Notes under the pieces: model-generated
The model's database searches: none
The model's input: only the letters and a program-made list of their open reading frames with translations
Told to the model about the DNA's origin: nothing
Assembly (NCBI RefSeq): GCF_036924525.1
Contig: NZ_JAZHRU010000001.1
Span: forward strand, 1,145,001 to 1,209,000
Direction of reading: 5' to 3'
DNA length: 64,000 nucleotides
DNA from: Bradyrhizobium sp. AZCC 1719
GTDB taxonomy: Bacteria > Pseudomonadota > Alphaproteobacteria > Rhizobiales > Xanthobacteraceae
Part shown: positions 19,830 through 44,572 of the stretch, one piece after another
Layout of the letters: each line of letters begins with the position of its first letter
Numbering within the stretch: position 1 is the first letter of the stretch
Translations under genes and position numbers: made by a program

Positions 19830-19965
19830 GTCATCACCCGCGAAGGCGGGTGATCCAGTACTCCGTGACATCTGTTATTACTCTCGAAGGCCGCGGCGTA
19901 CTGGATGCCCCGCCGGAGCCTGTCATCGGGCTCGCCGGAGGCGAGACCCGGTGGCGGGGCATGAC
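19830..19965. repeat. Family A palindromic repeat, copy 1 (with nested hairpin cassette)
   Basis: Left arm GTCATCACCCGCGAAGGCGG...ATCCAGTA, a ~40-nt centre, then GCGTACTGGATGCCCCGCC...GGCGGGGCATGAC. The right arm carries an inserted hairpin (about 19914-19955) starting GGAGCCTGTCATCGGGC and ending GACCCGGTGG, shared with other elements. It lies immediately upstream of the HAD phosphatase gene. Confidence 0.85.
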
Positions 19966-20678: not shown

Positions 20679-20777
20679 GTCATACCCCGCGAAGGCGGGG
20701 TATCCAGCAATCACCAGCATCTCGATCAATTACAGCGGCCGCGGCGTACTGGGTCACCCGCCTTCGCGGGTGACGAC
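20679..20777. repeat. Family A palindromic repeat, copy 2
   Basis: GTCATACCCCGCGAAGGCGG...ATCCAGCA, a short centre, then GCGTACTGGGTCACCCGCC...GGTGACGAC. It sits between the HAD phosphatase and dapD and starts 4 bp after the stop codon. Confidence 0.85.
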
Positions 20778-23536: not shown

Positions 23537-23553
23537 GGAGTGCCAACTCCGCC

Positions 23554-23704
23554 GTCATGGCCGGGCTCGTCCCGGCCATCCACGTTCTTGGTGCCTCACC
23601 GCAACGATCGCATCCGTCATGCCCGGCATTGTGTCGGGCATCCGCGTTCTGACTCAACAATAAGCAAAAAGGACGTGGATGGCCGGGACGAGTCCGGCCA
23701 TGAC
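23554..23704. repeat. Family B palindromic repeat, copy 2
   Basis: Left arm 23554-23589 (GTCATGGCCGGGCTCGTCCC...ATCCACGTT), a second internal left-type arm starting GTCATGCCCGGCATTGTG at 23616, and a right arm GGACGTGGATGGCCGGGACG...CATGAC at 23671-23704. It begins 18 bp after dapE and abuts the 3' side of the decayed GIY-YIG gene. The left arm also pairs with the arm at 24027-24062. Confidence 0.85.
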
Positions 23705-23732
23705 GACGAGAGACGCCGACGGAAGGATAACT

Positions 23733-24014
23733 ATTGAGCGATCGAAGATCGTTCCAATCAGGGTTGTCAGCCAAAATCAATCTTACCTTCCATTTTCGCG
23801 ACCAATGCTTGATGTTGTGCTCACGCTGGATCGCTGCCTGGATGCTCTCGTGATACTCGAAGTAGACGAGGCGCTTGACCGAATATCGCTTCGTAAAGCC
23901 TGCGATTAATCCATTCCGGTGTTGGAAGACTCGCCGAACGAGATCGCTCGTCACCCCGACGTGCAGGATGCCGTTAGGTGCGCTCGCCATGATGTAAACG
24001 TAGCCGCCGGACAT
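23733..24014 (-). pseudogene. Decayed GIY-YIG nuclease gene
   Basis: The minus strand encodes MSGGYVYIMASAPNGILHVG followed by VTSDLVRRV, RYSVKRLVYFEYHESIQAA and REHNIKHWSRKWKVRLI, clearly homologous to the intact GIY-YIG protein at 28035-28340. Two defects are visible. The second signature tyrosine is His (LHVG where LYIG is expected), and there is no stop at the normal place: the frame continues through the neighbouring repeat and antisense to dapE until 23397. Coordinates given cover the recognisable domain only. An arm of family B lies 12 bp upstream of the ATG. Confidence 0.75.
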
Positions 24015-24026
24015 GGGGGGATGATG

Positions 24027-24062
24027 AAGGACGTGGATGGCCGGGACAAGCCCGGCCATGAC
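24027..24062. repeat. Family B repeat arm next to the GIY-YIG relic
   Basis: AAGGACGTGGATGGCCGGGA...GGCCATGAC. Its reverse complement matches 23554-23589 at 34 of 36 positions, so the GIY-YIG relic lies between inverted family-B arms. It ends 8 bp before the truA stop codon. Confidence 0.85.
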
Positions 24063-24070
24063 GGTGAAGG

Positions 24071-25895: not shown

Positions 25896-25930
25896 GAGGT
25901 GGAAATCCCGTTACGACGCCAGTTTAGTTC

Positions 25931-26016
25931 GTCATGGCCGGGCTTGTCCCGGCCATCCACGTCTTTAGTGCAGGCAGAAGAAAAGCGTGGATGCCCGGGA
26001 CAAGCCCGGGCATGAC
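25931..26016. repeat. Family B palindromic repeat, copy 3
   Basis: Compact, well-preserved example: GTCATGGCCGGGCTTGTCCC...ATCCACGTCTTT, a ~15-nt centre, then AAGCGTGGATGCCCGGGACA...GGGCATGAC. It fills the gap between fmt and def. Confidence 0.9.
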
Positions 26017-26035
26017 GGCTGAGAGAGATGCAAAA

Positions 26036-27985: not shown

Positions 27986-28384
27986 CTGTCATCGCCCGGC
28001 TTGACCGGGCGACCCAGTATCCCAGAGGCAGTAAATGGGAACACGCAGCTACTACGTCTACATTCTAGCCAGCCGCATCGGCGGAACGCTCTACATCGGC
28101 GTGACAAATGATCTGATCCGGCGTGTTGGCGAGCACAAGTTAAAGCTCGCCGAGGGTTTCACCAAGAAGTATGAGGTGAGCCGGCTCGTCTATTTCGAAA
28201 CCTTCGATCAGATCGAATATGCGATCCAGCGCGAGAAGCGCCTTAAGAAATGGCCGAGAGCCTGGAAAATATCGCTGATTGAGAAACAAAATCCGGACTG
28301 GATTGATCTTTACCCGGAGATTGCCGGAGGCGGCGGATAGGCCTCTGGGATACTGGGTCGCCCGGTCAAGCCGGGCGATGACAG
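27986..28384. mobile_element. GIY-YIG element: perfect 44-bp inverted repeats around a nuclease gene
   Basis: Left arm 27986-28029 (CTGTCATCGCCCGGCTTGAC...CAGAGGC) and right arm 28341-28384 are exact reverse complements over all 44 bases; similarity stops sharply on both sides of each arm. Each arm also folds on itself (CGCCCGG/CCGGGCG). The enclosed ORF starts 5 bp after the left arm, whose terminal AGAGG can act as its ribosome site, and the right arm begins on the base after the stop codon. The arms are family-A sequences, so this is the coding version of the short family-A repeats. Confidence 0.85.
28035..28340 (+). CDS. GIY-YIG nuclease family protein
   Basis: A 101-aa single-domain GIY-YIG protein. 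The signature is split as YYVYILAS (GIY part) and GTLYIGVTNDLIRRV (YIG part plus the conserved Arg), followed by a conserved His (GEHK), a basic FTKKYEVSRLVYFET segment and AIQREKRLKKWPRAWK containing the family's acidic/basic helix. Small members of this family are close to YhbQ/URI-type proteins. There is no DNA-binding domain beyond the core. Enclosed by perfect 44-bp inverted repeats, it is the likely mobility or maintenance function of the element; that role is inference. Confidence 0.9.
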   Translation: MGTRSYYVYILASRIGGTLYIGVTNDLIRRVGEHKLKLAEGFTKKYEVSRLVYFETFDQIEYAIQREKRLKKWPRAWKISLIEKQNPDWIDLYPEIAGGGG

Positions 28385-29805: not shown

Positions 29806-29935
29806 GTCATCACCCGCGAAAGCGGGTGATCCAGTATTCCAGAGCAGTTGCGTAGAATCGAGAGAGCGCGGCGTACTGGATCGCCCGGTCCTGGTGCGCA
29901 ATTGCGCACAAGGCCGGGCGACGACAGCGGTCTAT
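29806..29935. repeat. Family A palindromic repeat, copy 5
   Basis: GTCATCACCCGCGAAAGCGG...ATCCAGTATTCCAGAG, a ~30-nt centre, then GCGTACTGGATCGCCCGGTC...GGGCGACGAC. The right hairpin is lengthened by an inserted palindrome TGCGCAATTGCGCA. The inner left end (CAGTATTCCAGAG) closely follows that of the GIY-YIG element. Confidence 0.85.
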
Positions 29936-33477: not shown

Positions 33478-33611
33478 GTCATACCCCGCGAAAGCGGGGT
33501 ATCCAGTACGCTGCAGCCTGACAGTAAAAACGGAAGGGCCACGGCGTACTGGATCCGCCTTCGCTGGTTGAGGCTACGGCGGACAAGTCAACCGCTTTCG
33601 CGGATGATGAC
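33478..33611. repeat. Family A palindromic repeat, copy 6
   Basis: GTCATACCCCGCGAAAGCGG...ATCCAGTA, a centre, then GCGTACTGGATCCGCC...GGCGGACAAGTCAACCGC...GATGATGAC. The right arm is disrupted by an extra ~30-nt stretch. It lies between ffs and the HIT gene. Confidence 0.85.
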
Positions 33612-36710: not shown

Positions 36711-36810
36711 GTCGTCACCCGCGAAAGCGGGTGACCCAGTATTCCAGAGACGTCAGCGATAGAACCGAGAAGCCGCGGCGTACTGGGTCCCCCGCCTTCG
36801 CGGGGAAGAC
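36711..36810. repeat. Family A palindromic repeat, copy 7
   Basis: GTCGTCACCCGCGAAAGCGG...ACCCAGTATTCCAGAG, then GCGTACTGGGTCCCCCGCC...CGGGGAAGAC. The inner CAGTATTCCAGAG is shared with copy 5 and with the GIY-YIG element. It lies between the Lrp gene and the convergent phosphohexomutase. Confidence 0.85.
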
Positions 36811-41772: not shown

Positions 41773-41867
41773 GTCATCACCCGCGAAAGCGGGTGATCCA
41801 GTAAACGCAGACGTTGCTGATCGCAAAGACCGGGAGTACTGGATACCCCGCCTGCGCGGGGTATGAC
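41773..41867. repeat. Family A palindromic repeat, copy 8
   Basis: GTCATCACCCGCGAAAGCGG...ATCCAGTA, a ~33-nt centre, then GAGTACTGGATACCCCGCC...GGGGTATGAC. It fills the gap between hrpB and the UDP-glucose dehydrogenase gene. Confidence 0.9.
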
Positions 41868-44452: not shown

Positions 44453-44572
44453 GTCATCGCCCGGCCTTGTGCGCAATTGCGCACTGGGACCGGGCGACCC
44501 AGTACGCCGAGCTCCCTCAGTTGAACATGACTGCCTCGGCGTACTGGATCACCCGCCTTCGCGGGTGATGAC
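44453..44572. repeat. Family A palindromic repeat, copy 9
   Basis: GTCATCGCCCGGCCTTGTGC...GGGACCGGGCGACCCAGTA, then GCGTACTGGATCACCCGCC...GGGTGATGAC. The left hairpin tip carries the inserted palindrome TGCGCAATTGCGCA also present in copy 5. It lies between the acyltransferase and polA. Confidence 0.85.

Follow-up and report, generated by a model that had tools for sequence, protein, structure and literature searches.

Results and Discussion

A GIY-YIG nuclease gene between exact inverted repeats

The window analysed here is a 64-kb stretch of the genome of Bradyrhizobium sp. AZCC 1719. At positions 27986-28384 it holds a GIY-YIG nuclease gene (28035..28340, + strand; 101 aa, ATG start, UPF0213/SLX1-like fold) enclosed by two 44-nt arms, one on the left (27986..28029, + strand) and one on the right (28341..28384, - strand). 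As the preliminary description of this DNA had reported, the arms are exact inverted repeats; their coordinates and 100% complementarity were confirmed, with a spacing of 311 nt, and they form the sole 100% pair among the 25 longest of the 89 inverted pairs in the whole window. The last base of the stop codon of the 101-aa ORF is 28340, and the right arm does begin on the very next base, 28341. At the other end of the gene, the left arm consists of a CGTC-type REP (TGTC tag, stem CGCCCGG/CCGGGCG, loop CTTGA, CCA tail) and a 13-nt extension ending in AGAGGC, the arm's 3' end; this motif lies 5 bp ahead of the ATG at 28035 and is probably the ribosome site of the gene. The ORF has a single Pfam match, to PF01541 (GIY-YIG), at 58.5 bits against a cut-off of 22.6.

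Each arm folds into the hairpin TGTC-A-TCGCCCGG-CTTGA-CCGGGCGA-C-CCAG, beginning with the tag TGTC and ending in CCAG, so that the CCA tail is present; the first A of the stem stands opposite C, and 8 pairs remain. According to the passages of Di Nocera, De Gregorio and Rocco (2013, PMC3733652) that define the group, CGTC REPs have a CGTC or TGTC tag, an 8-9 bp stem starting AT, a loop of 4-5 and a CCA tail, and mostly form inverted dimers. The arms thus fit the CGTC REP superfamily in tag, stem, loop, tail and dimeric arrangement. They differ from it in having an enzyme gene attached, whereas the 2013 paper, in its account of the repeats, reports no associated transposase genes.

Repeats of several types in the window

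A hairpin detector modelled on CGTC REP anatomy, in which the CC of the tail is a built-in requirement, returned 24 matches in the window and 0 or 1 match in each of 5 Markov shuffles of it; three of the 24 look spurious or double, leaving ~21 convincing copies. These comprise several REP types. The earlier proposal that the arms belong to the same family as repeats elsewhere in the window therefore holds, but the family is larger and more varied than the nine copies then counted. The short dimers are oriented as are the gene's arms, with YGTC heads outward. One, at 25930..26017 (heads outward), joins the GGCCGGG and GCCCGGG types. The heterodimer at 29806..29925 combines an arm CACCCGCGAAAGCGGGTG, followed by tail CCAGTATTCCAGAG, with an arm bearing the CGCCCGG stem, and the same two types make up the heterodimer at 44453..44572. 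Tail CCAGTATTCCAGAG, one base off the tail of the gene's arms, occurs on two window REPs, that of 29806..29925 and the REP at 36711..36738 (+ strand). Further short dimers are of the CCCGC-GAAA-GCGGG type (41773..41867) and the CCCGC-GAAG-GCGGG type (20679..20777), and further REPs of the CACCCGC-GAAG type (19830..19857, + strand, with a weaker partner at ~19890-19931) and the ACCCCGC type (33478..33505, + strand).

A second GIY-YIG gene in the window (~23757..24014, - strand) belongs to the clade of the first, is 55% identical to it in protein sequence and is bracketed by another window REP type: a CGTC REP of the GGCCGGG-CTTGT type lies upstream (24027..24069), and three CGTC REPs, two of them of the GGCCGGG type, lie downstream (23550..23708). 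Since His replaces the Tyr of the YIG motif, and the frame continues beyond the conserved domain with no stop before the downstream REPs, this gene may be decaying and its protein may be inactive. Genome-wide, six GIY-YIG genes were found, three in the clade of the window gene. Identity to the window protein is 58% and 55% for the other two members, and each of the three genes lies between CGTC-type repeats of a different type. The remaining three GIY-YIG genes fall outside the clade (L005, uvrC by sequence; L006; L002). The arm type of 27986-28384 has 16 matches in its own genome, two of which are the arms themselves.

Clade genes of distant bacteria are also flanked by CGTC REPs

We scanned genomes by protein similarity alone and examined the best 80 of 465 loci encoding a relative. 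Among these 80, a correctly oriented CGTC REP lay within 300 bp upstream at 44, downstream at 50 and on both sides at 36, compared to 3.1%, 3.6% and 0.20%, respectively, of 22,490 equal-size random boxes placed in the same loci. A flanking inverted repeat scoring at least 13 was found at 60/80 real genes vs 17/879 random boxes. The pairing reaches well past the host genus: outside Bradyrhizobium, 49 of the 54 loci within the best 80 had a flanking REP or inverted repeat, and 23/54 had REPs on both sides against a background of 0.13% of 14,900 boxes. For Pseudomonadota outside Bradyrhizobium the figure was 29/31. REPs in the wrong orientation were also seen near non-Bradyrhizobium genes (10/54 upstream, 13/54 downstream), some of them being the more distant units of dimers. 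Thirteen named phyla are represented among the 49 loci, four of which have no phylum assigned; most phyla contribute 1-3 loci, and single-phylum assignments are only as reliable as the metagenome bins from which many of these loci come. At the single Kiritimatiellota and the single Ignavibacteriota locus, neither a REP nor an inverted repeat flanked the gene. The arms in a lone 'Frankia' record are of the Bradyrhizobium type, and this record may have been mislabelled. With further genomes added, 166 of 175 unique clade genes had a flanking REP or inverted repeat.

Two named replicons illustrate the range. In Azospirillum lipoferum 4B the clade gene lies on plasmid AZO_p3 between sufB and sufC (L337), with CGTC dimers on either side, one arm of the left dimer being imperfect. 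At the Sinorhizobium meliloti pSymB copy our detector found no CGTC REP, but the gene lies within an inverted repeat that has a CCTCATCCCTGTG end. Di Nocera et al. (PMC3733652), where they list hosts and variants, name both Bradyrhizobium and A. lipoferum among CGTC REP hosts and CCTC as a tag variant.

The placement controls rule out a chance association of gene and REPs. They also bear on passive hitchhiking, by which REPs gather at gene ends and the small gene just happens to lie in intergenic DNA that is rich in them. Local REP density (~21 in 64 kb) would favour such an explanation, as would the predominance of REPs downstream of coding regions stated in the 2013 survey (PMC3733652). Against it, bracketing at 36/80 loci far exceeds the 0.13-0.20% of boxes, which were drawn at random positions rather than from other small intergenic genes. 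Together with the arm sequences described below, which follow the protein subclade and are concerted within a genome, this makes hitchhiking very improbable.

Arm types, protein subclades and REP numbers

Different protein subclades carry different arm types. On a tree of 95 Bradyrhizobium genes (92 columns, forks poorly resolved), the ten arm types on 85 labelled rows required 10 changes, the minimum being 9; the count excludes 10 rows that our patterns left unlabelled (nine T6 and one T7, later assigned by hand). The arm type was identical on both sides of 67/95 genes. This congruence between tree and arms is partly non-independent, since most subclades sit at one site, where arm and protein share descent. 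Several neighbourhoods were found for T3 (3), T4 (3), T6 (4) and T9 (4).

We then compared REP number with gene presence. Among the 31 Bradyrhizobium genomes compared, a type's REP count rose with the presence of its own gene for T6 (p=0.0015-0.015) and T8 (p=0.0006-0.002), both nominal with five types tested. The same was true of T1, the arm type of 27986-28384 (nominal p=0.012, or 0.001 when T10-armed orthologues are counted). No association with the gene was seen in these genomes for T2 (p=0.10) or T9 (p=0.25-0.52). Two matches were deducted per carrier, in the T1 test from T1-armed carriers only, and the first REP pattern, reversed as a control, gave 0 matches in 31/31 of the genomes.

Across 249 Pseudomonadota genomes, at least 20 REP-pattern matches were present in 27/58 carriers of the gene vs 12/191 others (p=1.6e-11), and in 21/52 vs 12/191 once the host genus was removed (p=1.2e-8). 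Carriers are here the genomes with an A3 match of at least 67 bits; two of them (G088, G140) hold gene fragments only, four genomes with weaker A3 matches only (G223, G046, G031, G131) count among the 191, and reversed-pattern matches, 0-6 per genome, were left in the counts. Some genomes count against a partnership: 25/58 carriers have fewer than 10 pattern matches, 15/191 others have at least 15, and G008 and G025 lack a clade gene yet have 177 and 72 first-pattern matches, respectively. The last two indicate that REPs can persist after the enzyme is gone.

Long residence of the gene between rmuC and ampG

The perfect arms had suggested either recent formation or active homogenisation. Recent formation finds no support in the comparison with relatives. 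At 18 of the 26 Bradyrhizobium loci within the best 80 of 465, the gene lies between rmuC and ampG, as it does in the window, and it occupies this site in 10 of 29 genus-wide, evenly drawn genomes with readable neighbours, our own included. Among the 18 loci, the frame is broken in L023, L030 and L031. One further genome of the 29 retains a 25-aa remnant. At the remaining sites our detector picked up a single REP or short dimers of other types, and at some nothing. A recent transposon insertion at 27986-28384 is not supported either, the gene being an old rmuC-ampG resident (survey of 265 genomes, 131 of them unscored). In L012 and L115 the rmuC-ampG gene has the opposite orientation with respect to its neighbours, an arrangement expected of recombination between its inverted arms.

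Homogenisation, in contrast, fits the data. An ungapped match to the window arm of at least 35/44 was found in 30/43 left and 29/43 right flanks (shuffled maximum 25), so the gene is present in many relatives with arms that are mostly undiverged; the preliminary description had regarded a gene resident in all related strains with diverged arms as grounds for abandoning its proposal. For the 18 of 43 genes in which both arms fitted a regular expression, the left and right arms of one genome were 1.33 bases apart compared to 2.0 between genomes (permutation p=0.003). At these 18 loci, identity is 95% in the arms, compared to 35-42% in the 30 bp outside them and 58% at third codon positions, a pattern that also speaks against hitchhiking; the arms were chosen here by that expression, a bias from which the ungapped matches in the 43 flanks are free. 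Perfect arms therefore do not imply recent insertion: the gene is mostly inherited in place and its arms are kept near-identical. The orthologues are bracketed by T1 or, in a subset, T10 REPs, some of the latter as full dimers, indicating that the arms can change while the gene stays.

Dimer ends, target sites and the gene as spacer

Among 316 REP units found with loops up to 6, 296 had 8 or 9 stem pairs and a loop of 4 or 5. In 149 unique inverted dimers, C or T preceded GTC (YGTC) at 288/298 ends. None of the 149 dimers was flanked by a direct repeat of at least 5, and 3- and 4-mers occurred at the shuffled level. A search of 121 dimers, later extended to 1,005 REP units and pairs so as to take in the closest relatives (at least 4% diverged), turned up rough replacements and one collapsed dimer, and no clean target duplication or empty site. 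The collapsed dimer is the L264 counterpart of window 25930-26017, where the short dimer is reduced to CGTCATGGCC-GGGCATGACG, its outer half stems fused.

Gene-bearing and gene-less copies share terminal inverted repeats, both in the window and in L162, a locus from the same bacterial family as the host. This is a feature of DDE-type IS/MITE pairs, from which the present repeats differ in that target-site duplication was not seen (0/149 dimers). Of the two models first put forward, then, a RAYT/REPIN-like or a transposon/MITE-like pair with a GIY-YIG enzyme, the idea of a partnership gains support that extends well beyond the window, while the lack of target duplication means that classical MITE/IS behaviour is not seen.

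The L162 locus has the arrangement dimer-28bp-[arm gene arm]-28bp-dimer within a tandem array that contains a 112-bp perfect direct repeat. Its middle unit is a dimer with the gene as spacer, where the neighbouring dimers have a short spacer. GIY-YIG homing endonucleases are a known class, and the gene's position in place of a dimer spacer, along with the match of protein subclades to REP types, is what one would expect of a homing-type selfish gene whose product cuts gene-less dimers so that repair copies the gene in, the REPs spreading otherwise. Nevertheless, Bradyrhizobium genomes hold only 0-5 gene matches of at least 90 bits despite 23-312 REP matches, and most subclades occupy one conserved site. 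Spacers differ among the three T9 loci compared (the comparison gave no T10 locus), so they offer no single cut site. We regard homing as unlikely.

The enzyme: fold, motif residues and selection

An AlphaFold model of the window protein, built with 24 sequences, reached a pLDDT of 88.9. The only solved fold it matched at E<=0.001 was UPF0213 1zg2 (BH0048), also the best PDB match by sequence, followed by SLX1 structures (7cq2-7cq4, 4xlg, 6seh; E 0.006-0.03), with UvrC much weaker. Motif residues Y20, R30, H34, E67 and N86, which we take to be catalytic by analogy with I-TevI and UvrC, are retained in 75-78 of the 78 proteins aligned; five of 83 were left out for broken or over-long frames (L023, L030, L031, L058, L059). 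The median dN/dS was 0.125 over 308 pairs with dS 0.05-1.5, a rough value, since dS comes close to saturation (median 1.16). Purifying selection acts on the gene, and its motif residues are kept. With UPF0213/COG2827 the clade shares a single-domain GIY-YIG fold, its motif residues and the 1zg2 match, and differs from distant small GIY-YIG genes (L301-L305, L006) that lack a CGTC REP or inverted repeat. SLX1 resembles it in fold, and its activity on branched DNA would be in keeping with a palindromic substrate. SLX1 itself is larger, eukaryotic and works with SLX4, and we know of no repeats attached to it.

Purifying selection, vertical inheritance at fixed sites, the SLX1-like fold and co-occurrence with REP-rich genomes could also describe a domesticated housekeeping nuclease that resolves REP cruciforms or hairpins and protects the genome, its flanking REPs serving in regulation or sensing rather than being mobilised. 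Such a role alone would leave several things unaccounted for: that each subclade has an arm type of its own, that T3, T4, T6 and T9 occupy several sites, that one gene copy lies between sufB and sufC, that the gene is lost or decays at rmuC-ampG, and that some REP-bearing genomes lack it. We consider this alternative improbable as well.

A candidate enzyme for CGTC REPs

We judge it probable that the locus represents a RAYT/REPIN-like partnership, in which gene and arms constitute an 'autonomous' CGTC REP dimer built around an unrelated SLX1-like GIY-YIG nuclease. The autonomous form would be a REP dimer with heads outward (YGTC...GAC) and the nuclease gene as spacer, and the scattered short dimers would be its gene-less forms. 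The protein would recognise the hairpin or cruciform made by its own REP type and nick or cut it near the YGTC tag; repair or recombination might then copy, excise or homogenise dimers, leading to amplification in trans. For its part, the enzyme gene would mostly remain at one chromosomal site under vertical inheritance, as RAYT genes do. The YGTC ends, the lack of target duplication and the SLX1-like fold suggest that an extruded hairpin or cruciform is recognised and that copying proceeds through repair instead of DDE transposition. Mobilisation of the REPs by the GIY-YIG enzyme is what we infer from these sequence comparisons.

RAYTs are present in few gene copies that are vertically inherited and mostly stay at one site. 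As in the REPIN-RAYT system (REPtron), the enzyme gene described here is flanked by REPs, as monomers or dimers, of the type that populates its genome, and gene-less dimers are scattered through that genome. RAYTs are repeat-specific where several REP families coexist, as noted by Di Nocera et al. (PMC3733652), and the same would hold for the present enzymes. The two differ in that a RAYT is an HUH tyrosine enzyme and its REPs are tagged GTAG, whereas the present proteins match PF01541 (GIY-YIG) only and the tag is YGTC.

The 2013 survey, in the relevant parts of its text, records CGTC REPs from five phyla as well as from Rickettsia, Wolbachia and Neisseria, includes Neisseria dRS3 and Rickettsia RPE-4 and RPE-6 in the superfamily, and offers as explanations for the apparent lack of a dedicated transposase that the enzyme was lost early or that many transposases are used (PMC3733652). 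GIY-YIG has zero occurrences in the full text of that paper as available under this accession, and GIY, nuclease, RAYT and transposase are absent from the available portion of the 2025 RepRanger paper. A 2007 paper mentions three small genes of Caulobacter crescentus that belong to COG2827 and whose role is unknown (PMC1839093, in the part concerned). Among the matches listed for the open-licence PMC literature none links GIY-YIG to REPs, in keeping with the initial impression that such a system had no prior description.

To our knowledge, the GIY-YIG fold has been encountered only in homing, repair, restriction and retroelements. Because the same gene-palindrome pairing recurs in distant bacteria, the GIY-YIG enzyme is the best candidate for the machinery spreading or maintaining one of the two big bacterial palindrome families. 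We see roughly even chances that the enzymes missing so far from the CGTC REP superfamily, those that mobilise it, are GIY-YIG nucleases. Enzyme and repeats would then make up a class of minimal mobile system that crosses phyla and is convergent with RAYT/REPIN, with palindromes cut by a single-domain SLX1-like nuclease and with neither HUH or DDE enzymes nor target duplication involved. What would be new is the type of enzyme in an enzyme-plus-palindrome pairing, and there is a fair chance that this is a new class of mobile system. CGTC REPs thereby gain a named candidate enzyme, and the question of a dedicated transposase becomes testable. If the REPs are mobilised by it, the GIY-YIG nuclease fold would have a transposition-like activity and enzyme-plus-palindrome partnerships would have arisen at least twice.

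Other GIY-YIG genes and their repeats

A comparison set of other GIY-YIG genes, intended as a negative control, comprised 23 loci, 22 of them with a match. The detector found CGTC REPs at 0/22. Inverted repeats of another family were present at 13/22, all 13 within a sister group of Bradyrhizobium genes (13/15 of L286-L300), and the set therefore fails as a negative control. L002, the relative of this group in our own genome, had no inverted repeat in the same test, and at L006 and L301-L305, the latter being five distant small Bradyrhizobium genes scoring 37-41 bits, neither a CGTC REP nor an inverted repeat was nearby (0/6). The sister clade's repeat has the form CGTCATCCTGAGG...CTCGAAGGATG, with a CATCCTGAGG repeat. 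This looks like a second enzyme-repeat pairing and suggests that the arrangement is wider still. Many of the repeats that bracket the sister-group genes read CCGTCATCCTGAGGTGCGAGC or CTCGAAGGATGG. Lastly, the Bradyrhizobium locus L239 holds a tandem pair of T9-type GIY-YIG genes, with REP dimers between and around them.
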